Source: a virus. Taken from it: a stretch of 61,829 bases of DNA. The position numbers and the translations under genes were made by a program. Positions 720 to 14,601 of the stretch are shown here, in pieces (within the stretch, counting starts at the first letter, position 1; every line of letters starts with the position of its first letter). The stretch lies in the IMG/VR virus record IMGVR_UViG_3300011114_000316, positions 1 to 61,829 of that record; one strand, given 5' to 3'. A model generated the notes under the pieces. That model was not told the origin of the DNA, made no database searches, and worked only from the letters and a program-made list of their open reading frames with translations.

Positions 720-952
720 CCACACACCTGACAAAAATCTGGTGGGACTTGAACAAGCACAAGCTGGTCGAGCAGGCAATACCAGAGGCCGAGATTTACA
801 AGCGTGAGTGGGTCGGGCTGACGGATGAGGTCATTTGGCTGGAGTACCAACGCTTTTGGCCGTTTCATCCAGCCGAAGAACCAACGCTGGCTAAGGACAT
901 TGTCAAGTTTGCCCGAGCCATCGAAGCCAAGCTGAAGGAGAAGAACACATGA
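716..952 (+). CDS. Small accessory protein carrying only the C-terminal family module
   Basis: A 78-residue protein that overlaps the previous gene by ATGA. The N-terminal half (Trp-rich, residues 1-30) is unlike its neighbours. The C-terminal half has the LTDEVIWLE segment and the FARAIEAKLKEKNT tail shared with the family. The last codons, AAG GAG AAG AAC ACA TGA, form a Shine-Dalgarno sequence and the overlapping ATGA start for the next gene. This is consistent with modules being exchanged. The function is unknown. Confidence 0.7.
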   Translation: MTTHLTKIWWDLNKHKLVEQAIPEAEIYKREWVGLTDEVIWLEYQRFWPFHPAEEPTLAKDIVKFARAIEAKLKEKNT

Positions 953-1380
953 CTGACCGCGAACTGATGCAGCAGGCGCTGGAGGCGCTGACTGCATATG
1001 ACGGGACGAATGGAGCAAGCCAAAGAAAGCGCGTCCTTGCCGCCCTGCGCGAGAGGCTGGCACAGCCAGAGCAGGAGCCAATAGCGTGGGTATACCAAGA
1101 AGGGCTGGAGGCATTGAAAAGCGGCAGGCCGTGGACTGCGTACGGCAGCAATGGGTACAGCCGAATTCCTTTATATCTCAACGACGCAGTAGCTCCAAGG
1201 GTAGAGCCCCGCGCAAGCGGGAGTGGTGCAGGGTTCGAGTCCCTGCCTGCGTCATCGCAATGGAAAGGGTTGACGGATGATGAAATCGTGCTGATTTGCG
1301 GTGAATGCGCTGCGTCTTACGCTGACGATATTCGCTATGCTCGCGCCATCGAAGCCAAGCTACGGGCGAAAAACACATGA
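949..1380 (+). CDS. Modular small accessory protein containing an in-frame tRNA-like segment
   Basis: A 143-residue member of the same family: MTDRELMQQALEAL at the N-terminus, ALRERLAQPEQEPIAWVYQ near residues 24-45, IPLYLND near 73-79, LTDDEIVLICGECAA near 105, and RYARAIEAKLRAKNT at the end. Where relatives have a short linker such as TAPPQ, this gene has about 24 residues (roughly 79-102) encoded by a sequence that folds like a tRNA (see 1183-1254). The start overlaps the previous stop (ATGA). The function is unknown. Confidence 0.75.
   Translation: MTDRELMQQALEALTAYDGTNGASQRKRVLAALRERLAQPEQEPIAWVYQEGLEALKSGRPWTAYGSNGYSRIPLYLNDAVAPRVEPRASGSGAGFESLPASSQWKGLTDDEIVLICGECAASYADDIRYARAIEAKLRAKNT
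1183..1254 (+). other. tRNA-like element lacking an anticodon arm, inside a coding sequence
   Basis: Seen directly: GACGCAG (1183-1189) pairs perfectly with CTGCGTC (1247-1253) as a 7-bp acceptor-like stem. U8/A9-like TA follows, then a D-arm GCTC/GAGC with loop CAAGGGTA that keeps the GG pair. A T-arm GCAGGG/CCCTGC has loop TTCGAGT. In place of the 17-nt anticodon arm there is a 14-nt hairpin, CCCGC-GCAA-GCGGG, capped by a GNRA tetraloop. No anticodon loop exists, so it cannot decode. The segment is read through in frame by the gene at 949-1380. It could be a degenerate tRNA capture or an RNA mimic that recruits tRNA-processing enzymes. Confidence 0.7.
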
Positions 1381-2725: not shown

Positions 2726-2975
2726 TAAAGAGCGGGAGCACGTCAGACGAGTAAAGGAACTACCTTGCTCCGTCTGCGATGCTCCTGGCCCGAGTGATGC
2801 CCATCACATTAAACAACACCGGCAATACACCGTGGTGGCTCTCTGTAAAGATTGCCACCAGGGTGCGGTGATGGGCTGGCACGGTCAGCGGAGAATGTGG
2901 GCTATCAAAAAGATGGACGAGTTAGATGCTCTCAACATCACGATAGCCCGCCTCACTGCTTCATTGACTTCCTAA
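2706..2975 (+). CDS. Ref-like / DUF968-type HNH nuclease
   Basis: An 89-residue protein with a GTG start at 2706. It has CSVCDAPGPSDAHHIK (about residues 20-35), ALCKDCHQGAVMGWHGQRRMW (45-65): a CxxC, HH, CxxCH zinc-HNH arrangement. This is the compact form of the fold in P1 Ref, a RecA-dependent nuclease, and in DUF968 proteins. It probably cuts DNA during recombination. Its last 23 bases overlap the end of the convergent giant gene, so the plus and minus transcription units meet here without an intervening terminator. Confidence 0.7.
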   Translation: MNNTLTDKEREHVRRVKELPCSVCDAPGPSDAHHIKQHRQYTVVALCKDCHQGAVMGWHGQRRMWAIKKMDELDALNITIARLTASLTS

Positions 2976-5900
2976 CCGATTCTGCATTCTTGGCCAGATC
3001 GATCAGCAGCAACTTCATCCGATCAATGTTCTCGCGCTTATCCTCTGCGCTCATGGAAGTGTCTTCTGTGTATATCCGGATGTACTGACGAATCTTGGCC
3101 ATCTGCTTCGAGGTGTTGTCGTAGAGCTTAGCCAGCGCGACCTTGTCACCCTTCTCTTCCAAGATCGCCTGGACCTTGGCAGAGTCACCAATTGCTGCGT
3201 AATGCCTCATGTCAGCAAACGCTTCGCTGATACCTTTGGCGTTCTCATAGAAGGACGTGACGTACTCAGACTGCGTGGCCGGCAGTGACTTGATGAACCC
3301 GACACTCGCGATGTCCACCCATTTCTCTGACGGGTATGCCCCTTCGTTGAACGGCGACATGGCGTGTTTAGATGCCCAGGCAATCGTTCCACCCAGCCAG
3401 CCAAAGTAAGCTTTGATTGCATACTCCGCCTGGACAGGAGACATCTCAGCTTTGGTAGGCAGGAACAGGTTAGAGATGCCACTGACTGCCATGGCCAACG
3501 GGCTGGTGTTGTCGGTCTTCCGCTCCTCTTTGGACAACCGCTCCATACCCGCGGATTCAATCGGCGCTCCAGTAAAGCTATCCTTGTTGGAGTACAGATC
3601 GACCAGCGGCTTGAACATTTGCGGCATCGGGTTCAGAGAGAACGTATCCGAGATCATCCGGCGCAGCGTGTTCTCGAACTGCTTACCCTCAGCCTCTTCG
3701 TCAAAGATCTGCTCCGCCACCCGCTCTGCAATCGTTCCAAACGCGCCAATTTCAAACGGTTTCGGGATACGTAGTGCGTACTCCATTCCGGGCAACTTGA
3801 ACCACCAGAAGTTATCCCGATCCCAAGCATCCCGTTTCTTAAACTCTTCGTCATCCTTGCCTGCGAAGTACAAAGCCAGAGAAGCTAAGACCACAGCAGA
3901 AGTCACAGTGGTAAACGCGGTGGCTTTTTTCTTGTCATCCTGTTCAATCGGCTCGCCCGTGACAGTGTTATAGAACACCCGTACGGTCGGGCTAATGCCA
4001 TCCCTGCCAAGCTTGTACAGACCTTGGACGCGAGCGTTGAAGAACGGGACAGTCTGAGCCAAGAACCTCACCGCCGGCCACGAGCCCTGCATTGAGAAGT
4101 CCAGCAGATCACGCGCCATGAACGATGCGGTCAAGTGATCCTTTCCTTGCTCGCGAAGCTGGTTGTACAACGCGATCCGGTTAGCCGCCTCGGACTTGTT
4201 GCCCCACTCCTGATACTTGTTCCACGCAGCCAAAAGCTTCTCTGTAACTTGGCCAGGGGAAGTCAAGATGGTGTCAGGATTGACGCCCTGTTTAATCAAC
4301 CGCTTCACCAAGCGCGCTTGATCGCCCTCGTAGATCGATCCAAAGTTAAAGATCGCGCCACCAGCCAAGGCCGATAAGAACCGGGGATTGCTCTTGTCAG
4401 ACCCCTTCCAACCTTCGTACACGTTGGTTACCGGGTTCCACTTCATATCTCCACCGGCCAGCGCGATTGCCTGGATAGAGTCGCGGAACAAGTTCCTTAC
4501 CTTAAACGCAGGGCTCAAGGTCACGCCGTACTGCAGCATGTTCTTGAAGTCTTTCATCACGCTAACGAACTTGGACTGCGGACCCATGTACCCGATAGAC
4601 GAGATGGACTCAAACAGCATCGGATCAATAATCTGAACGTAGGTTGGGATACCCTCGAGCATAATCTTGACCGTGCTCTGAGCACCGTCTCTACGCTCAG
4701 TCATCCAACCTTGCAGCGATCCATCTCCAACCATTTCTCCAGAAGACCGCAGATATACCTTGCCGTTTTGCCACATGTACTGAACCTTCAGGCTCGGTAC
4801 CGCAGCATCCTGAGCAAACGCAGCATTAACTGTTTCAGCAGCAGCACGGTTCTTCATCGACGCAGAAAGGATGTGACTCCAGTTGCGTACGATGTTCTCC
4901 ATCAAATCACCAAACGGGCTGGTGCCACCTTTGATGTTGTAAGAGAAGTACTGATTGGGCAGGCCAGATGAATCCATGGCGGCGGACAACATACCGTCTT
5001 CCATCTCACGATAGAACGGGATGTACCACACGTCATTAGAGAACCGCTCATATCCGACCGGGTTCATCTCGAGATCCAAAACCTTTGCGGCTTTCTGATC
5101 ATCAGTCAGATCGGTACGCTGCCAAGTCTTCTCAATCTCACGAGCGGTAGACGTAATCAAACCCTGGGTCATTGCAACGCTCAACACCGATTTGTTCAGT
5201 TTGTTGAGTTCGTTACGGGCTTTCATGTACAACTCAATCCGCGGTGTACCGTTAAGATCACCTTCCGCTAACAACTGACGTTCGTTGATCAGATCCTCGA
5301 TCCCTTCGATCTTGGACTGACGACCAGTTTTCATCAGTTGAGCTTCACGATTCAACGCGATCCACATTAAGAATCGATCCACCTCGGGGCCGATAGGCTT
5401 CAGGATGTCCATCATCCCTTGGCTCTTGGGCTTGATGTCTAACGCGCCGTCATTCAGAAATACTTCGCCGTTAAACAGGAGGCCCTCGAGTGCTCCGTCT
5501 ACCGTACGAGACATACGCGCCATGATGTATGCGCGTTCGCTGTAATCCTTGATGGTTCGATACTGATCGGCAACACCTTGAGCGACACGCCTCCAGAACC
5601 CGTCTCGCATCCCAGCGATCTTGTCGATGATCGTCGCCCGCTGCGGCGCGTAAATCGGCTGAGCTTTAGCCAGGAACTCTTCTGGCACCCCAACAAACTC
5701 TGCCGGGTTGAGCGGTTTACGTTTCTGCAGGAACTCCTGTGCCGTGTTAATGACCTTCTCACGACTGGGCACCACAGACTGTTTGATGTCGCTCTCAAAC
5801 AGCATCGTATCGGTTTGGAATTCACCGTTACCTTTAGCCAGACTATCTAGCGCGCGGATCACAGTGGCATCAGACGGCAAACCAAACATCGATTTGATCT

Positions 5901-8900
5901 TCTGCACAAACTCTTTGAGCCACTGCTGCAGCCTGGAGATCAGAGAGTCACCGTAGGCAAACCGGTTCTGAACAATTCTTGAACCGTTAACAGCCCAGAA
6001 CTCAGACGGGTTGATGTACTGGTAGTAATCCGCCGGTACATCACCGTTCTTGATCATCTCCTTCGCCGTTGCCAGCAACTGATCAGGTGCAACCTCTGGT
6101 GAACCAAAATGATACTGAGTCAACAACTCAAAGTATTGCTGTTCGCTTTCTGTCGTAGCCCGACGCGCAGCCGCGGTCAATTGCATCAGCCACTCAGTAC
6201 CGATTGCAGACTGAATGTCAGACGGCATCATCCGCTCAAGGTGATGCAGGATCTCGTGAACAGCCGTGTCGGCTTGCTCAACTTGCGGAACTAAACGAAT
6301 GATCTGGTCAATACTGTTGTACTCACCAGCAACACCCGCTTCTGCCTTGGTGCTGATGCTGATACCAAGCTGATCAACCAGCGCCGGATTCTGGCCAATA
6401 AACCAAAGAGCAAGTTCAACGCCTTTGTCCGACAGCAGACCTTGACGCCGAGCACGGAGTAGACGTTCGCGGATGTAGTCAGCACCGCGTACCCGTTCGC
6501 CTGCTGCAGGTTTCTCAACTTGTGCGGCTTTATCAAGAGCAGTCTTCACGCCCTCGATAAACGCGGTATCACCGATTACGCCATCGGTATGCTGCTTGTT
6601 GAGAAACTTGATGCGACGTTTAGTCTGAACAGGCGCAGCTTTAGTAACCGACTGGATTGGGACAACAGACTGCAGCGGCGGATTGCTGGGCTTGTTCCGA
6701 GCATCGATGATGTTCTTGGTATTCCGGTCACGTACATCTGCGACCAATTCCAAGTCGTACCCAGAACTACTAAGCACTTTGATAAGCAATTCTGTCGCGT
6801 CAGCCGCCGGAACTGCATTTGCCCGCATCTTATTGCCAGCAGAGGTAAAGGTAATGTTTTTTGTTTGTTTATGAATCTTGCCGCCTGTACCACCCTTACT
6901 GACTTCAATCGTGTAGTACTGCGGAGTAATAGGATTGCGCTTAAGCTTAAACGTCTCGCCCATGCGCAACTTGTCTACAACCGTACCCCCCAGTTCAGCC
7001 AGTTCCAGAGCAGCCTGGGGTGAAGTAATAGCTGCCGCCTGTTGGGAAACTAATTTCTTGTAATCAAAACCGACCGGCATCAGGAAACCTTGCAGCAGGT
7101 TGCCCTGATTGTCTGTGTAACTAATTAAGTTTCCACCACCTGCAGCTTGTTTGCCGCGGAGCAGATTACCAGTGATGATGTACCGCTTCTCACGAGTCCC
7201 AATTTGGCCACGGTCGAATGCCTGAGTGATGGGGATATCTTCGATAGAACCATTCTCAGTTGGAACGCCCATCGTTGTTGCGGGGCTCCAAACGATCTTA
7301 TCTGCTTGGGCTGTTTCTGCTTCATTAGTGTTGGCTAACTGACTAAGACGCAACGTCATTGTTTGAGCCGCACCATTCACTAGTGCAAACCTGACTTCCC
7401 AGTCACTTAGTGACGCAGCAGACTTTGTACGGCCCTTTTTCTTAACGTCTATTACAACGCCATACAACACACCATCTTTGCTGCTAAGACTCACAATCTC
7501 CGAAATGCGTGGCAAACGTTTACGCACAATACTAATTGCGGCTTCCATCGCCGTGGTTTGCCTGTTGACAATTTCACGTTGCTCATCTGTTGCGTCTTTC
7601 GGCAAAGACTGAATGAGCTTTTGAATTTCTTCATCAACAGCATCTTTAAAACCTTGTGCTTGCTGATTACGCTTCGCTTCGGGCTTAGATCCGTCAAGTC
7701 CTTTAAGTGCTAACTCTCGGACCTGATCAAGCTTCAAAGGTTTGGTCAGTCGTTTAGCATCAACAACCTGAAGTACAACCGGCGCAGTAAACGGACTATC
7801 AGTGCCAGGATCTTGGGGCTGAAGCTCAAACGTTTCCACAACCCGAGCATCCAACTGTTTAACCTGAGCCTCGAGATCGTTCTGACCCAGAGACTCGATC
7901 AACGCAATTTGATTGTTGTATTCCTCAATCAAGGTTTTGTAGAGCGCAGACTGTTCTGCAAGGGGAAGCAGACCAATGCGGCCCGTCACCTTGGCCATCG
8001 CTCCTTCTATTCTGGGATTCTGATCCTGATCAAACTTAATCGGGAAGCCCAATGTCGCGTTAAGCTCAGACCCTCCAACAACCTCAGCCGCTACACGATC
8101 CCCGTACTTGTTCATAAAGTCCGGCGTCTTCACGTCTTGAGTAGCAGTCTTCCTGCCGGCGGTGGTGTTAGCACTTAGTGCTGCCATCTTGTTAGCCAGC
8201 ACAGCGGCTGGGCGAAGCTCGATAGGCACATTTGCCGACAGTTGGATGTAGTACGGCAGGCCAAACGTAGCAGGCTTACCTTCGGGCGAACGACCATCTT
8301 CGGTCACTTGGCCAGTGCGATTAATCCTACCCAGCATCTGAACGTGATTGTTGATGTCTGGCTCAGCCTGCGCCAGGATCATCACGCGCCGACGCTGATC
8401 AGCAAACTTCTCCGACGCATGCATCGACAGGCCAGTAGACCCGGACCTGTTGATGATTAGCGCATCAATCTGACCTTCGTTGAACTTGGAGATAGTGTTC
8501 TTTTTGCCAGCGGTATTGAGTTCTGATCTGTTCCTGGGCGTTAATCTAGCTACCCCGTCTTTAGTCGAAACAACAGTGTTACGACCAGTAATCTCACCAA
8601 TCGAATACCCAGCCGCTTCGATACGTTCTTTGATGGCATCAATCGGCGAGATAGGGATGTCTAGTGTCCGGCCCATCGCCCGAATGAAATCTAGCGTATC
8701 TTCATATGCCGACAGCGCCTCATCGCCAAGCTCATCATCTGTGAGGTAGTGAGGTAACTTGCGACCGTCAGGATAGGAAATCTTAACTGTTCGCACTTTC
8801 TCAAGGTAACGCTCGAGCACATCGGCAAACGATGCCTCAAGTACATTACCTATCTTAATATTGTTAGCTTCGGCAAAATCCTTAATGAACATTTCCATGG

Positions 8901-11900
8901 TGTTGGAAACCGTAATGACTGGTTTCTCACCACGCTGGATAGCAGCAACAGCTAGGTCTGCTGTTTCTTTAGACTTGAGCGCTAACAAGAACGTACCTAG
9001 TACGTTGTGCATGACGCTAGTAAAGTTCGTGGCTTCGACTTGAGGCGCGGCTACAGAACCGTCCTCCATCACTTCGCCCTGCGTATCTAGATCCGCCTGC
9101 AGGTTGCGAACGGATTTGGCTTTGAGTTCATCAAATGCCACGATGTCGCGCATCGCAGTAGACAGATCTTCTGCTGCAGCCTGATCTACTTCCACTGTCT
9201 CGTTGGTGTATGAAATGCCAGCAAATGATCGTTCGCGGCGCAGATACTGTGTTGCTTTGACCAGCATCGCAGACACAGCTTGCTGCATCGGGATAGACGA
9301 CAGGGCATTGATTAGACGATTGGGCTCCCCTGGGAACGCCATGCCGATATCGGTTTTGTTGTACGCATCCAGCACATCAACGTTCTTGGCAAACGTAGCA
9401 GACGAGTAAAAGACGCTACCAGCTTTGTCGATGTACTCACGAGCGATATTTCCAAGACCCGTAGCTTGATTAACACCAGATCGTTTACCGATGTTATGAG
9501 ACTCATCCATGATTAACATGGCGTTCTCATTAATGAATTGATTTAAGAACTCATGCCGGAAGTAAAGCTCTGGCTTTGGGTACCGCATAAGCCCAGCTTC
9601 ATCGCGCTTTGGTTTACCAGAACTCTTAGGATTCATCTGGAAATATGACGTAAAGATCACGTCATAGTTGCCCAGTGACTTGTTATCCATTATCTGCTTG
9701 AGCGCAGCCTCATGCCGTTTGTTATCCGGCGTATCAAGAAACTTGCCGCGGCGCTCAGGAATAGAAGCTCGCAATTCAGCAATTTGTTCTTTTAGTTCTT
9801 TTACTTCTTCATCAGTTGACGAATTAATAAATTTAGTAAGCGCAGTGTCTCGTTCTTGTCCTTCTAGTTTTGTAAATTTTTCGCCTAATTGAATACTTGC
9901 AATATCAGCCGCTACTTCACGCACTTCTGTGATGTCGGCCTCAATCTCTTGTTTCTCGCCATACCATTGCAACGCTTCGGCATCTAATGGCACAGACTTG
10001 TTGTTATCCGTCATCAGCGGACGGACATCAGTCATTCCGATGTCATGCAGGTCGCGCATGATGTCGCCATACAAATCTGCCATCTGTGTAACAAACACAG
10101 GAACCTTCTTGTTCAACATGGCATAGCGGATCATGCCTGCCACAACACGGCCTTTGCCAATACCGGTCTGATCTCCAATGATGAATCCGCGATTAGATTC
10201 AATGTTGTAGATCGACAGAGCAAGAGCCTCTACCTGCTCAGCAGAGAAAGCTTGTGCAAACTGTTCCGGCGTGTACTGCAGTTTGTTCTGCACGTACTGA
10301 TCAATGTCGCCGACCTTCTCACGCAACTTGGCAAACGCATCTTCAATAGGCGTGAGGTGGTTGGTAGCAACCAGCGTATTGACTGATTTGTTACCAGAGA
10401 AGTTGTTATACGGAACCTGCAGACGCTGTGTCTGCTCTTCCGTCAGTCGTGCTCGAGCCGGCCCCGCAGCAGCGGTTGTATCCACTGGAGCAGGCTCGCT
10501 TGGTTGTACACCTCTTCCGCCTTCGGGTCGTTCTTCTCCAGCACCCTCGGCAGTCCCGGCCCCGGCACCCTCCGCTTCTCCAGTAGGTCTTTCACCACCG
10601 GGTTCTCCGCCAGGAGCAGGAGCGGCACCTCGTCCCTCTCCAGCGGCACCTCCAGCAGGCCCGCTTGGTGCAGCAGGCTCTCCACCTGTTTCAGTTCCCG
10701 GTCGTCTGCCTTCTCCGCCAGCTTCTTCAGCCGCACCTCCAGTTGTAGGCGGTGCTGCTGGGGGTTGAGGCGCAGCCCCTTCGGCCCCTGTATCGCCCCC
10801 AGGAGGCGTCTCTCGTCCCCGGAAGGGCCCCATGTCATTGTTTGTGCCATCCAGAACTCCTCGTAGCTCATCCCAGGTTGTAATCAACCGGGGCAGCGCA
10901 GCAGCAGGCAAGTTGCGTTTAGTTGCATTAGCCTTGCGTCCGTCGATAACAATCATATCAACGGGGTAGGTTGTACCTTGCTTAGCGTATAGATCACCCG
11001 CAACCGTGAAGTGATCTACAACGTTGTACTCATTGTAGAGTTTGTAGAAAAACTCACGCTTAGACTTGCCCCGATAAGCAGTCCGACGCGAGTCTTCATC
11101 CAAACGATTTGGTCCGCCGATCAACAGGACAGCACGGCCATCATCCTTCATAGCCGTGAGCGCGTTCAACGCAATCGCGTGATCACGCTGCTTAGTCTCA
11201 AATCCATCGATGTTATAAGTCTGTTCGCCTTCTCCATACGGAGGGTTAGTCAGTACTACATCTACAGACTTGGGCTGAAATTTCATTGACCCAGCATCTT
11301 GCTGGCTAACTTTGAACCCTTGGGATTCAAGTGCCGCTACTCGGTCAGGATTAATTTCATTGACCGTTGCCTTATCTGCATCGGTAAAAATAAGTAATGC
11401 GCCCTGACCAGCGGTAGGTTCTAAAACTGTGTTGTCAACGTTATCGTAGAGTCCTGATAACTGAATTGCCGCGTGAGCAAGTGGCAACGGTGTGCTGTAT
11501 GCTTGATTAGCAATACTGACGCTGTCTCTAACTCCAAGAGTCGGCATCTGCTTGTTATTAAAGTCAACAAGCCGGTTATAAATGTCTTCCGTATATTCTT
11601 CTTTTTCTACCACTTCCCGGCCATACACCACGCCAGCAAGTTCTACAGCCTCGTCTACCAGCTTCGCATCAGGAGTGCCGGGTTCAATCCTACGTCCGAG
11701 CACATCACCGGCAGCTCTCCGAGCCTCATTAATGTTGGCAAACCCTTTGCCATCTCGGAAGGTTTGCAGGAACGAATTAGCCAAGCGTACGCGCTCAGGC
11801 GCAGCAGGAGCTTCTGTCTCTGCCAGGATAGCGTCAACGTCTGCAGCTTCGACGGCGGCACTAGAATCCAAACCTTCAAGATCCGCAGCACGGGGATCAA

Positions 11901-14601
11901 ACTTCACGCCCATGTACCAGGACTTGAGATACGGCTTAACAATATCTCCAAGGTCTCCGACCATTGCCTTGGCATAAGCAGCAAAAGTCCTGGCACCCTT
12001 TTCAATGTGATAGATGGCCAGCGTAATGCCGTCTTGCACAATCTCAGGATCAATACCGGATCTAAGAGTGCCGCCACTTAGTTTGCGACGCAACCGTTCT
12101 CTGGCTTGTGCTGCGGCTTCCTCACTGACTATCTTGTTAGCCCCAACCTCAACCTTGGGCTTTTGTGGAGGTTCAACAGTGGGAGGTTTAGGCGGAGTAG
12201 CCGGAGGTTGTGTAGGCGTAGTAGAAGTGCCAGAAGGTGTTGGCTGTGCAACTCCCCCTTTAGGCTGATAACCTTTCCCACCTTTTAGCCACGACTCAGA
12301 GGGATAAGAACTAAACGGCGGCTGGGACAACCAATTTTCTAACCTACTGCGTCTGCCAAACAATTCTTCTATAGCCTGACCCGACCCGCCAGCTTGTTGC
12401 AATGCATCAATTTGCGAAGACAAGGAATCAAGTTCTTCGCTAGCGCGCTTAACATTATTGGCTTCTTTTTGAGTGCCAAACGTTTGCGCCCAATTTCCAT
12501 TAATTAAGAATTGCCACCCATCAGGTACATCTACACCGTTTTCATCTCTAAATGCTTGTTCAACAGTGTATTTAGACGGAGCTGTAGGGGCAGGCTCAGT
12601 TACGCCTGCCGGCGCTTGCGGTGGCGGAGTTGCCGTTTCACCAGAAGACGGTTGACGCGGCGGTAACTTACTGACTTGCGATTCATATTGCTGTCGGGCC
12701 TGTTGTTCACTAGGCCACAGCGTCATCTCAGGCAAGTACTGTTTAGCGTCCTGGTCATAGACGCCAACACCAAACATGCCTGACTTGTTCTTAAACAAGC
12801 GAAGTTCAGTGTTCTCTCCGCTAGGCGTAGCTGACAAAATCTCTGCAGATGCATATTGCCGTTTCTGCAGTTCCGTTCTCAAATCAACATCTGGGAACAA
12901 CGCAGCAAATTTTTTTGTTTCCTCACGAACAGCTCGATCAGAAGAACTAAAATTATTGTCAATCAACTGCTGTTCTTGTGCCGCTAAAGATTCCCATTCA
13001 GCGCGTTTAGCCGATCCTTCCGGAGGAATGCGACCTTTAGCATCAAGTAATGCTCGTTTCTTTTCTCGGAGAGCCTGTACTTCTTGGACCACAGCATCAC
13101 GTTGCTGCTGAGCGTCTTGCACGGCCTGTAAACTTTGCTCGAGCGTAGGCTTCTCTGCCGGAACTTTCTTTGTTTCTTCAACCGGGGGCGTGACCGTGGG
13201 CGGAGCAGTAACCGGTGGCGCTCCTGTGGGCGGAGCGGCAGGCGCGGCAAACTTGGCCTTAAGTAGCTGGTATACCTGATCTTCCGTAGAGCCCAGCATC
13301 TGCGGTTCTTGATCCGGCGTACCCTGTACTTTTTCTTGCAAACGTCGGAACAACTCGCGCTGCTGATCTTCCGGCAACTGGTTGACCATAGTTTGCACAG
13401 CCGCGCCAGCAGAAGGCGGTGAAGGCGGTGAAGGCGGTGCGACCCCGGACGGAGGAGCTATCGGACCAGCGGGGGGAGCGCCAGGGGTGGCAACGTTGCC
13501 ACCCTCCGGGGGTGCCTCAGCCGCAGGAGCCCCGCGTAACAGTCCAAATACACCACCCAAAGTACCGCCACCGATAGCAGCCATGGCCGCGGTAGCACCC
13601 AACCCGGCAGTAAGTGACTGCTCCGGCTTGATGGTCTGCATGGCGATGTTACTGGCAAGTTTGCCACCCACCTCCTCGACCATCTCACTAGCCGACTCAC
13701 CCAGCAAACCAGTAATGCCGCGACCCAAGCGGGTCGATTCGAGCTGGGACATAAATCGTTGTCCAGCCCCGGTCTCGGCAGCTTCTCGTACAGACTTAGC
13801 CACCGGCATTCTGGCCATCGTCTGTTCAATCGTACGCGCGCCCGGTAGTCTCTGCGCCAGGGTGGAAATCACCAACGCTGACGCGCCCACTGCTCGAGCG
13901 CGATCCAACGCGGTTTGTTTGGCTACGTCAGGATCAATCCCTTGTTGTACAAGTTCTTTGTACATTTCTTCAAAGGATTGAGCACCAACATCAGCGCCCT
14001 GCTGAATAGCGCCAGCACCAATAGCCGCCGCGGTACCGGTACGGGCAGCAATCTCGGCACCCTCTTGAAGACTCCTGCCGGCCATCGCGGCTCTGGCTGC
14101 ACCCGCCGCTGTGCCTAGTTTTGCAGCACCAAACGGTACTACTAACTGCGGGATCTGCTCAGTTAAAAACGTACTAATCAGCGCTGGATCTTTAACCGTT
14201 TCCCCGAATGCCACGCCAAACGCAGGCAGTTGGCCACCCGCTCGTTCTGCCTCTTCAATCTTCCTGGCGCGTTCATATTCACGGGCTACCAAACCGGGCG
14301 ATTTAAGCCCCTGGCCAGTCTTCTTAATACGCTCGCCAAGTTGGAATAGTCCTGTCTCAGTGTCGCCAGTTCCTAGCGCATATAGCTGGGCGGGAAACTG
14401 AACCAAGGCCCCAAGGCCGGAGGTAAGTGCAGCGCCAGGATCGCGCAGGAAGGCTTCGCCAACGGTACGTTCTTTGGCTTTTTCTCTGACCGACGCGCCT
14501 TGCTCTGCGATAGCCTGCTGCAAGACTGACTGTGGTGTGCCTTCCGGCGCTTCAATTGAATACGTATATCCATCAGGACCGCGTACCTGGAAGGTCGGCA
14601 T
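2953..14601 (-). CDS. Giant polyvalent protein: DNA methyltransferase + Strawberry-notch helicase + peptidase-like domains
   Basis: A 3,882-residue uninterrupted ORF. Order: conserved virion-type N-terminus (FQVRGPDGYTYSIEAPEG, 4-21); Ala/Gly-rich hydrophobic stretches to about 365; Pro-rich linkers near 370-480 and 720-800; an N6-adenine methyltransferase-like domain with LEPTAGQGAL (about 1060) and NPPY (1119-1122); a Gly/Pro/Glu linker about 1195-1330; an SF2/Strawberry-notch-type helicase with TGIGKG (K1483), DESH (1699-1702) and NRSGSTGLSMHA (about 2050); an HEILHH metallopeptidase-like site (2782-2787); long helical regions; and a C-terminal LPD-like domain. P1 DarB combines the same methyltransferase and helicase. 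Inference: it is ejected with or bound to DNA and counters restriction. Confidence 0.85.
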   Translation of the reverse strand: MPTFQVRGPDGYTYSIEAPEGTPQSVLQQAIAEQGASVREKAKERTVGEAFLRDPGAALTSGLGALVQFPAQLYALGTGDTETGLFQLGERIKKTGQGLKSPGLVAREYERARKIEEAERAGGQLPAFGVAFGETVKDPALISTFLTEQIPQLVVPFGAAKLGTAAGAARAAMAGRSLQEGAEIAARTGTAAAIGAGAIQQGADVGAQSFEEMYKELVQQGIDPDVAKQTALDRARAVGASALVISTLAQRLPGARTIEQTMARMPVAKSVREAAETGAGQRFMSQLESTRLGRGITGLLGESASEMVEEVGGKLASNIAMQTIKPEQSLTAGLGATAAMAAIGGGTLGGVFGLLRGAPAAEAPPEGGNVATPGAPPAGPIAPPSGVAPPSPPSPPSAGAAVQTMVNQLPEDQQRELFRRLQEKVQGTPDQEPQMLGSTEDQVYQLLKAKFAAPAAPPTGAPPVTAPPTVTPPVEETKKVPAEKPTLEQSLQAVQDAQQQRDAVVQEVQALREKKRALLDAKGRIPPEGSAKRAEWESLAAQEQQLIDNNFSSSDRAVREETKKFAALFPDVDLRTELQKRQYASAEILSATPSGENTELRLFKNKSGMFGVGVYDQDAKQYLPEMTLWPSEQQARQQYESQVSKLPPRQPSSGETATPPPQAPAGVTEPAPTAPSKYTVEQAFRDENGVDVPDGWQFLINGNWAQTFGTQKEANNVKRASEELDSLSSQIDALQQAGGSGQAIEELFGRRSRLENWLSQPPFSSYPSESWLKGGKGYQPKGGVAQPTPSGTSTTPTQPPATPPKPPTVEPPQKPKVEVGANKIVSEEAAAQARERLRRKLSGGTLRSGIDPEIVQDGITLAIYHIEKGARTFAAYAKAMVGDLGDIVKPYLKSWYMGVKFDPRAADLEGLDSSAAVEAADVDAILAETEAPAAPERVRLANSFLQTFRDGKGFANINEARRAAGDVLGRRIEPGTPDAKLVDEAVELAGVVYGREVVEKEEYTEDIYNRLVDFNNKQMPTLGVRDSVSIANQAYSTPLPLAHAAIQLSGLYDNVDNTVLEPTAGQGALLIFTDADKATVNEINPDRVAALESQGFKVSQQDAGSMKFQPKSVDVVLTNPPYGEGEQTYNIDGFETKQRDHAIALNALTAMKDDGRAVLLIGGPNRLDEDSRRTAYRGKSKREFFYKLYNEYNVVDHFTVAGDLYAKQGTTYPVDMIVIDGRKANATKRNLPAAALPRLITTWDELRGVLDGTNNDMGPFRGRETPPGGDTGAEGAAPQPPAAPPTTGGAAEEAGGEGRRPGTETGGEPAAPSGPAGGAAGEGRGAAPAPGGEPGGERPTGEAEGAGAGTAEGAGEERPEGGRGVQPSEPAPVDTTAAAGPARARLTEEQTQRLQVPYNNFSGNKSVNTLVATNHLTPIEDAFAKLREKVGDIDQYVQNKLQYTPEQFAQAFSAEQVEALALSIYNIESNRGFIIGDQTGIGKGRVVAGMIRYAMLNKKVPVFVTQMADLYGDIMRDLHDIGMTDVRPLMTDNNKSVPLDAEALQWYGEKQEIEADITEVREVAADIASIQLGEKFTKLEGQERDTALTKFINSSTDEEVKELKEQIAELRASIPERRGKFLDTPDNKRHEAALKQIMDNKSLGNYDVIFTSYFQMNPKSSGKPKRDEAGLMRYPKPELYFRHEFLNQFINENAMLIMDESHNIGKRSGVNQATGLGNIAREYIDKAGSVFYSSATFAKNVDVLDAYNKTDIGMAFPGEPNRLINALSSIPMQQAVSAMLVKATQYLRRERSFAGISYTNETVEVDQAAAEDLSTAMRDIVAFDELKAKSVRNLQADLDTQGEVMEDGSVAAPQVEATNFTSVMHNVLGTFLLALKSKETADLAVAAIQRGEKPVITVSNTMEMFIKDFAEANNIKIGNVLEASFADVLERYLEKVRTVKISYPDGRKLPHYLTDDELGDEALSAYEDTLDFIRAMGRTLDIPISPIDAIKERIEAAGYSIGEITGRNTVVSTKDGVARLTPRNRSELNTAGKKNTISKFNEGQIDALIINRSGSTGLSMHASEKFADQRRRVMILAQAEPDINNHVQMLGRINRTGQVTEDGRSPEGKPATFGLPYYIQLSANVPIELRPAAVLANKMAALSANTTAGRKTATQDVKTPDFMNKYGDRVAAEVVGGSELNATLGFPIKFDQDQNPRIEGAMAKVTGRIGLLPLAEQSALYKTLIEEYNNQIALIESLGQNDLEAQVKQLDARVVETFELQPQDPGTDSPFTAPVVLQVVDAKRLTKPLKLDQVRELALKGLDGSKPEAKRNQQAQGFKDAVDEEIQKLIQSLPKDATDEQREIVNRQTTAMEAAISIVRKRLPRISEIVSLSSKDGVLYGVVIDVKKKGRTKSAASLSDWEVRFALVNGAAQTMTLRLSQLANTNEAETAQADKIVWSPATTMGVPTENGSIEDIPITQAFDRGQIGTREKRYIITGNLLRGKQAAGGGNLISYTDNQGNLLQGFLMPVGFDYKKLVSQQAAAITSPQAALELAELGGTVVDKLRMGETFKLKRNPITPQYYTIEVSKGGTGGKIHKQTKNITFTSAGNKMRANAVPAADATELLIKVLSSSGYDLELVADVRDRNTKNIIDARNKPSNPPLQSVVPIQSVTKAAPVQTKRRIKFLNKQHTDGVIGDTAFIEGVKTALDKAAQVEKPAAGERVRGADYIRERLLRARRQGLLSDKGVELALWFIGQNPALVDQLGISISTKAEAGVAGEYNSIDQIIRLVPQVEQADTAVHEILHHLERMMPSDIQSAIGTEWLMQLTAAARRATTESEQQYFELLTQYHFGSPEVAPDQLLATAKEMIKNGDVPADYYQYINPSEFWAVNGSRIVQNRFAYGDSLISRLQQWLKEFVQKIKSMFGLPSDATVIRALDSLAKGNGEFQTDTMLFESDIKQSVVPSREKVINTAQEFLQKRKPLNPAEFVGVPEEFLAKAQPIYAPQRATIIDKIAGMRDGFWRRVAQGVADQYRTIKDYSERAYIMARMSRTVDGALEGLLFNGEVFLNDGALDIKPKSQGMMDILKPIGPEVDRFLMWIALNREAQLMKTGRQSKIEGIEDLINERQLLAEGDLNGTPRIELYMKARNELNKLNKSVLSVAMTQGLITSTAREIEKTWQRTDLTDDQKAAKVLDLEMNPVGYERFSNDVWYIPFYREMEDGMLSAAMDSSGLPNQYFSYNIKGGTSPFGDLMENIVRNWSHILSASMKNRAAAETVNAAFAQDAAVPSLKVQYMWQNGKVYLRSSGEMVGDGSLQGWMTERRDGAQSTVKIMLEGIPTYVQIIDPMLFESISSIGYMGPQSKFVSVMKDFKNMLQYGVTLSPAFKVRNLFRDSIQAIALAGGDMKWNPVTNVYEGWKGSDKSNPRFLSALAGGAIFNFGSIYEGDQARLVKRLIKQGVNPDTILTSPGQVTEKLLAAWNKYQEWGNKSEAANRIALYNQLREQGKDHLTASFMARDLLDFSMQGSWPAVRFLAQTVPFFNARVQGLYKLGRDGISPTVRVFYNTVTGEPIEQDDKKKATAFTTVTSAVVLASLALYFAGKDDEEFKKRDAWDRDNFWWFKLPGMEYALRIPKPFEIGAFGTIAERVAEQIFDEEAEGKQFENTLRRMISDTFSLNPMPQMFKPLVDLYSNKDSFTGAPIESAGMERLSKEERKTDNTSPLAMAVSGISNLFLPTKAEMSPVQAEYAIKAYFGWLGGTIAWASKHAMSPFNEGAYPSEKWVDIASVGFIKSLPATQSEYVTSFYENAKGISEAFADMRHYAAIGDSAKVQAILEEKGDKVALAKLYDNTSKQMAKIRQYIRIYTEDTSMSAEDKRENIDRMKLLLIDLAKNAESVRKSMKQ
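13487..13502. repeat. Palindrome GTGGCAACGTTGCCAC, copy 1
   Basis: A perfect 16-bp palindrome, extended here to 20 bp (13485-13504). It lies inside the first Pro-rich linker of the giant gene and is read as GGNVATP. The same word occurs at 19487, 31426, 53173, 53236 and 54499. Confidence 0.95.

Follow-up and report, generated by a model that had tools for sequence, protein, structure and literature searches.

The carrier gene and the tRNA-like element

The window, by which we mean the whole stretch of viral DNA analysed here (61,829 nucleotides, IMG/VR record IMGVR_UViG_3300011114_000316), begins with a series of tandem paralogous small ORFs (140–1380). These belong to a modular family of the type 'ALEALE...EPVAW...GLTDEE...AIEAKLKEKN', the modules of which are shuffled between phages. 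One ORF of 143 amino acids (949–1380, plus strand) contains the element described below. Its translation gave only a weak match to PHROG 660, and neither Pfam nor PHROGs provided a function for the gene. The protein consists of a left module (EPIAWVYQEG..WTAYG..IPLYLN, 1075–1182, plus strand), for which homologues exist both with and without the element, and a right module (SQWKGLTDDEI..AKLRAKNT, 1255–1380, plus strand), a similar start of which follows a different left flank in two related phages (G009 and G010). The initial annotation stated that 24 open codons replace a short linker of sister proteins. The ORF indeed passes through the element in frame, and comparison with homologues of the left module that lack the element revealed a short linker at its place, for example PIYTTPPEQERREWQGLTDEE (TTPPEQ-type). 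These element-free homologues are diverged. Elsewhere in the window, the minus strand harbors a single ORF of 3,882 amino acids (2953–14601), in which helicase- and methyltransferase-like sequence was recognized by eye.

The element itself comprises 71 nt (1183–1253, plus strand) and was identified by its fold, by a strict structural scan with a Markov control, and by a covariance model trained without the clade to which it belongs. The 5' strand of the acceptor stem, GACGCAG (1183–1189), is followed by TA, corresponding to U8-A9 (1190–1191), and by a D-arm of the sequence GCTC-CAAGGGTA-GAGC with a 4-bp stem (1192–1195/1204–1207, plus strand) and an invariant GG within the loop; U8-A9 and D-arm together span 1190–1207 and include columns that are invariant among 18 sequences. 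At the position where an anticodon arm would be expected, the element has the 5-bp hairpin CCCGC-GCAA-GCGGG (1208–1221), which is paired but variable in sequence throughout the family and is not preceded by nucleotide 26. The variable region AGTGGT (1222–1227; AGTGGT or AGTGT in all members) leads to a T-arm (1228–1246) with a 6-bp stem GCAGGG/CCCTGC and the loop TTCGAGT, as supported by fold and family pairing. The 3' strand of the acceptor stem, CTGCGTC (1247–1253), pairs with the 5' strand in all seven positions and is followed, according to sequence and alignment, by a discriminator-like A (A73, 1254) and then TCG. The acceptor/T stack thus has 13 bp (7+6). The previously proposed cloverleaf was confirmed by the fold, with two corrections: the T-stem has 6 instead of 5 bp, and no base separates the D-stem from the hairpin. 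The claim that all stems are intact applied to the window copy and, beyond it, to all four stems in 18 family members.

Folded alone, the element adopted exactly the cloverleaf (-37.2 kcal/mol, z = -4.0), and none of 200 shuffled sequences was as stable. When 100-nt flanks were included, pairing of the acceptor was predicted to be less certain in the mRNA context (mean probability 0.31). The strict structural scan returned a single match in the window and none in 3.7 Mb of Markov sequence. ARAGORN called neither a tRNA nor a tmRNA in the window, and at curated thresholds Rfam gave no match to the window element.

Family members and their genomic contexts

Family members were collected by exact-pattern scans of IMG/VR for the two halves of the element, which detected it in further contigs with different flanks, followed by a wider scan that yielded strongly diverged members. 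A strict structural filter was applied to several hundred loci, many of them with ordinary tRNAs, and returned the family and one mis-parsed tRNA-Leu. The resulting set comprises 18 distinct members: the window copy, 16 in other IMG/VR contigs and one in a bacterial MAG (L239). All are 68–71 nt in length and share a consensus of a 7-pair acceptor, UA, GCTC-NAARGGYA-GAGC, the hairpin, AGTG(G)T, and a 6-pair T-stem with the loop TTCGANT. The hairpin has 4–6 pairs and, in most members, a loop of 3–4 nt, with varying loop sequences. U8, A14, A15, G18, G19, A21 and the TTCGANT T-loop are conserved across the family. An A directly follows the acceptor in 17 of the 18 members and ACC in 12, while CCA is encoded in three; in the window copy the acceptor is followed by ATCG.

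Further searches gave no additional members. Neither the carrier protein nor the element had a relative in 50,697 phage records, and no relative of the element was detected in 72,556 plasmids; some of these searches gave hits, but only to tRNA genes or parts of the T-arm. Among about 885 bacterial genomes from the family, order and class of L239, only the L239 MAG matched; because the per-genome scoring covered the best candidates, this is not a firm negative. The matches listed by wider pattern scans were mostly ordinary tRNAs and included no other family member.

The genomic contexts of the members differ. In-frame copies are located between two protein modules. Copies in frame after a WTAYG...PLY-type module occur in the window and in L083, L086, L090, L092 and L102, and copies in frame after a GYEAGYN-type module in L082, L084, L088, L089, L093, L094 and L095. 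The copies in L178, L191 and L239 lie downstream of a PrtN-like gene, where they overlap the end of a small ORF; they end in ACCA, and are immediately followed by a terminator-like hairpin; that of L178 was not flagged by a consensus terminator scan, yet hairpin and T-run are visible. The gene that follows in L178 is a tyrosine integrase, and L191 has a similar start. The L129 copy lies between genes right after a stop codon, and the L187 copy is intergenic, with promoter-like sites on its upstream side and, downstream, a likely terS, named by eye. Embedding in a gene, as initially described, therefore holds for the window copy but does not define the element: since the copies of L129 and L187 are intergenic and those of L178, L191 and L239 end in ACCA with a terminator-like hairpin, the element can do without a location inside a gene. 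The in-frame clade probably represents the derived state. Each virus record contained one clear copy. No ordinary tRNA gene was found in any of the fetched element-bearing virus records, nor was a full-length tRNA found in relatives at the place of the element.

Two observations concern individual contigs. Between the promoter-like sites and the tRNA-like element of L187, upstream of the likely terminase small subunit gene, a second structured and unannotated stretch (1020–1200) combines an outer stem (GTGGTGG...CCACCAC) with a TTCGATT loop further inside; a permissive Rfam search of L187 positions 900–1400 gave no match to it. L239 (CAMDCO010000002.1, 1.7 Mb) is a MAG titled Bordetella parapertussis, a title that is doubtful, and contains a prophage-like region, at the end of which the copy with ACCA is located.

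Flanking sequences are exchanged around the element. Among the close relatives of the window phage, G009 and G010 are mostly 91–98% identical to it across long stretches, and in the left-end region have only positions 1180–1286 of the window in common, so that the element and its right edge are kept and the upstream module differs. In other phages just the element is shared (window 1179–1254, 98.7% with G013), with sharp ends and unrelated flanks. As genes for an exonuclease, an ERF single-strand annealing protein and an SSB, which could drive flank shuffling, are present in this phage (55189–57368, plus strand), homologous recombination within the element can account for the shuffling without transposition. 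A role as attachment site was considered and rejected. In L178, L191 and L239 the element does lie close to an integrase or a prophage edge, but the stretch apparently common to L178 and the edge in L239 lies, by eye, downstream of it, and the host G001 has only one copy of the acceptor/D-arm sequence.

Conservation of the RNA shape and relation to known tRNA-like RNAs

Covariance analysis of homologues, proposed together with the initial annotation, demonstrated that the structure is conserved, so that the refuting case named there, a lack of such conservation among homologues, did not occur. In the model-fitted alignment of the 18 sequences, 98.2% of 396 pair cells were standard pairs. Changes on both sides occurred in 12 of the 22 pairs across the family, including five of the seven acceptor pairs. 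The covariation score was 0.456 compared to 0.119 ± 0.016 in shuffled and ≤0.08 in slid controls, and an unfitted MAFFT alignment gave nearly the same result. Within the 12 closest in-frame copies alone, 99.6% of pair cells were paired, and five pairs had changes on both sides. A covariance model (R2) built only from six divergent members outside the in-frame clade detected the window element with a score of 76 bits (E = 5e-20) and gave no other match in its record. With the full model, family members scored 71–98 bits; in one bacterial genome, no ordinary tRNA-like match exceeded 44. The counts of G-U versus A-C (8 vs 5) were too few to fix the structured strand.

In the in-frame clade, none of nine fourfold-degenerate third positions varied, and the variable columns fell on codon positions 1, 2 and 3 in numbers of 2, 10 and 7. 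Because fourfold sites are invariant while second codon positions vary, it is the RNA that is constrained and not the peptide; constraint on a protein would give the opposite pattern. The reading frame through the element is a secondary accommodation, and a structured RNA can be maintained inside an open reading frame.

With permissive filters, the Rfam tRNA model (RF00005, cut-off 29) matched L239 (37.6 bits), L191 (36.7), L187 (35.3), L178 (35.0) and L102 (31.5). The window copy was not matched, and default filters gave no match above the gathering score. Since five divergent members exceed this score, the element is clearly derived from a tRNA. In common with canonical tRNAs it has a cloverleaf with a 7-bp acceptor, U8/A14, A15, G18G19, a TTCGA T-loop and the almost universal A73, and the acceptor, D and T arms with the elbow contacts are all present in the family. 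It differs by the lack of an anticodon loop and of base 26, by the 6-bp T-stem and the length of 68–71 nt, and by its occasional location within an ORF. Among the sequences found, tRNA-Trp(CCA) of Campylobacterota and deltaproteobacteria was most similar in D-arm and variable region. A functional decoding tRNA was ruled out, as there is no 7-nt anticodon loop, in accordance with the ARAGORN result.

We compared the element with several known systems. The acceptor/T stack of bacterial tRNA-Sec is 8+5, so that both RNAs have 13-bp stacks; unlike tRNA-Sec, the element has neither an anticodon nor a long variable arm, and its D-stem has 4 bp. The Rfam tRNA-Sec model scored L187 at 30.1 bits, below the cut-off. 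Three core pairs in the acceptor/T region of tRNA-Sec reject EF-Tu in E. coli (PMC9976931), and by analogy such rejection would be fitting for an RNA excluded from translation. The bacterial Y RNA YrlA has a tRNA-like domain (PMC8394870) and is, as is the element, a non-translating mimic of D, T and acceptor arms, but YrlA possesses a long Rsr/Ro60-binding stem that the element lacks. Assignment to YrlA or Y RNAs was rejected, as the alignment showed no conserved pairing past the acceptor stem and Rfam gave no YrlA match. A TROVE (Ro60/Rsr) gene occurred in none of 17 records, with Deinobacterium chartae as positive control; the host could supply the protein. The tRNA-like domain of tmRNA is likewise without an anticodon. 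However, the element has a true D-stem and no mRNA-like domain or tag, and tmRNA was excluded since no tag-encoding domain is present in the 71 nt and neither ARAGORN nor Rfam called one. mascRNA/menRNA is a small tRNA-like RNA cut by RNase P from a longer transcript. It is an animal nuclear RNA (RF01684), in contrast to the phage-borne element, and was rejected upon a weak match of 23.3 bits (cut-off 42.5) in which only acceptor and T arm align. Rickettsia palindromic elements (RPEs) are repeats tolerated in frame within protein genes (PMC10969869); they have this tolerance in common with the element, but are about 150 bp in size, not tRNA-derived, and located on bacterial chromosomes.

A possible decoy function and its alternatives

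The family represents a phage-borne tRNA mimic that lacks an anticodon and is conserved in shape. tRNA mimics as such are known already; new is a phage-borne, anticodon-capped mimic able to reside in frame within a gene. No Rfam family covers such a class, and the part of the literature covered contained no account of a phage tRNA mimic without an anticodon. Cleavage by RNase P, modification and a decoy role, as suggested in the initial annotation, are all plausible. With regard to function, we tentatively favor, at somewhat less than even confidence, that the window element is an RNA gene, probably excised from the transcript and acting in trans as a decoy. According to this proposal, RNase P would cut at the 5' end of the element, with which its geometry and the ACC motif are compatible, and thereby release the RNA; the 3' end would be matured by ordinary tRNA trimming, with CCA being encoded in some copies or added. 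The released RNA would then work in trans, as host tRNA-binding proteins might accept the tRNA shape via elbow and acceptor, while it could not decode and would offer no anticodon loop for cutting. Its role would most likely be that of a counter-defence decoy against tRNA-targeting host systems. In the window phage, the RNA lies within a small, probably early gene that belongs to a variable region, and it doubles as a 24-residue linker joining two protein modules.

Phage tRNAs have been found to evade retron or Septu defences (PMC11555353, PMC13096335). These are full tRNAs with an anticodon, which the element lacks; shared are the phage-encoded tRNA shape and, possibly, the decoy logic. Our preference for a decoy rests on the use that phages already make of tRNAs in this conflict and on the lack of an anticodon loop that could be cut. 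Several points speak against it. In the mRNA context, predicted acceptor probabilities range from 0.00 to 0.99 among in-frame copies, and some are predicted to fold poorly. The low number of copies encoding CCA, the window copy not being among them, and the loop variation of the hairpin, which gives no pointer to a specific partner, add to this, and the carrier mRNA would be lost upon excision of an in-frame copy. The more far-reaching possibility that the family constitutes a new class of phage counter-defence RNA, namely a stable mimic excised from messages that would occupy tRNA-targeting nucleases or toxins via elbow and acceptor and could be nested in coding sequence, linker and decoy arising from one stretch of DNA, we consider doubtful at present.

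Several alternatives were considered. A tRNA pseudogene kept by chance would agree with the clear tRNA ancestry and the missing anticodon, but the stems are intact, the architecture is constant over diverged sequences, and compensatory changes occur in the 18 sequences and also within the 12 closest in-frame copies. Owing to this covariation the element is not a pseudogene, as already argued in the initial annotation, and we regard such an origin as hardly credible. The covariation also bears on the idea that the element is a conserved anchor for in-frame module swaps that has no function as RNA. Left and right modules are indeed shuffled around it, and in that region the element and its right edge are all that G009 and G010 have in common with the window. 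Yet an anchor leaves unexplained why pair changes are compensatory, lowering identity while keeping structure, and why there are intergenic and terminator-linked copies, which makes this role very unlikely.

A cis-acting processing site, where RNase P is attracted by the tRNA shape and cleaves a polycistronic mRNA, or where the 3' end of the mRNA is set, and where the released RNA has no role, would be consistent with copies that lie within messages or at their 3' ends, with the ACC end in two thirds of the members, and with the terminator-like hairpins right after the element in L178, L191 and L239. We nevertheless consider it unlikely: after cleavage of an in-frame copy the ORF would lack its stop codon, and yet the reading frames are open through the element; RNase P alone would probably not require strict conservation of elbow and capped hairpin; and the L129 and L187 copies are located between genes. 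Quite unlikely, too, is a selfish or hitch-hiking mobile RNA that tolerates in-frame insertion in the style of RPEs, for which in-frame fusion is known (PMC10969869). Near-identical, sharp-ended copies in unrelated flanks, such as those of the window and G013, and the existence of homologous genes without the element point in this direction. On the other hand, there is one clear copy per virus record in few distinct insertion contexts, no mobility gene was seen adjoining the element, and swapped flanks could result equally from homologous recombination in pre-existing copies by ERF and exonuclease.

An RNA that selection maintains in tRNA shape, but deprived of the part that decodes, singles out what phages use this fold for outside translation. 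As a small, defined RNA with natural compensatory variants, the element makes RNase P processing, modification, charging and interference with defence directly testable. Such RNAs are overlooked by tRNA gene finders and by Rfam at default settings. Two further phage contigs each harbor a single tRNA-like gene with a 5-bp T-stem: in L098 (4443–4515) the anticodon arm is the tetraloop hairpin CCGT-GCAA-ACGG, and in L150 (minus strand, oriented 7933–8003) the hairpin AGGCC-GGAA-GGTTT. Both are possibly convergent anticodon-less tRNA mimics.
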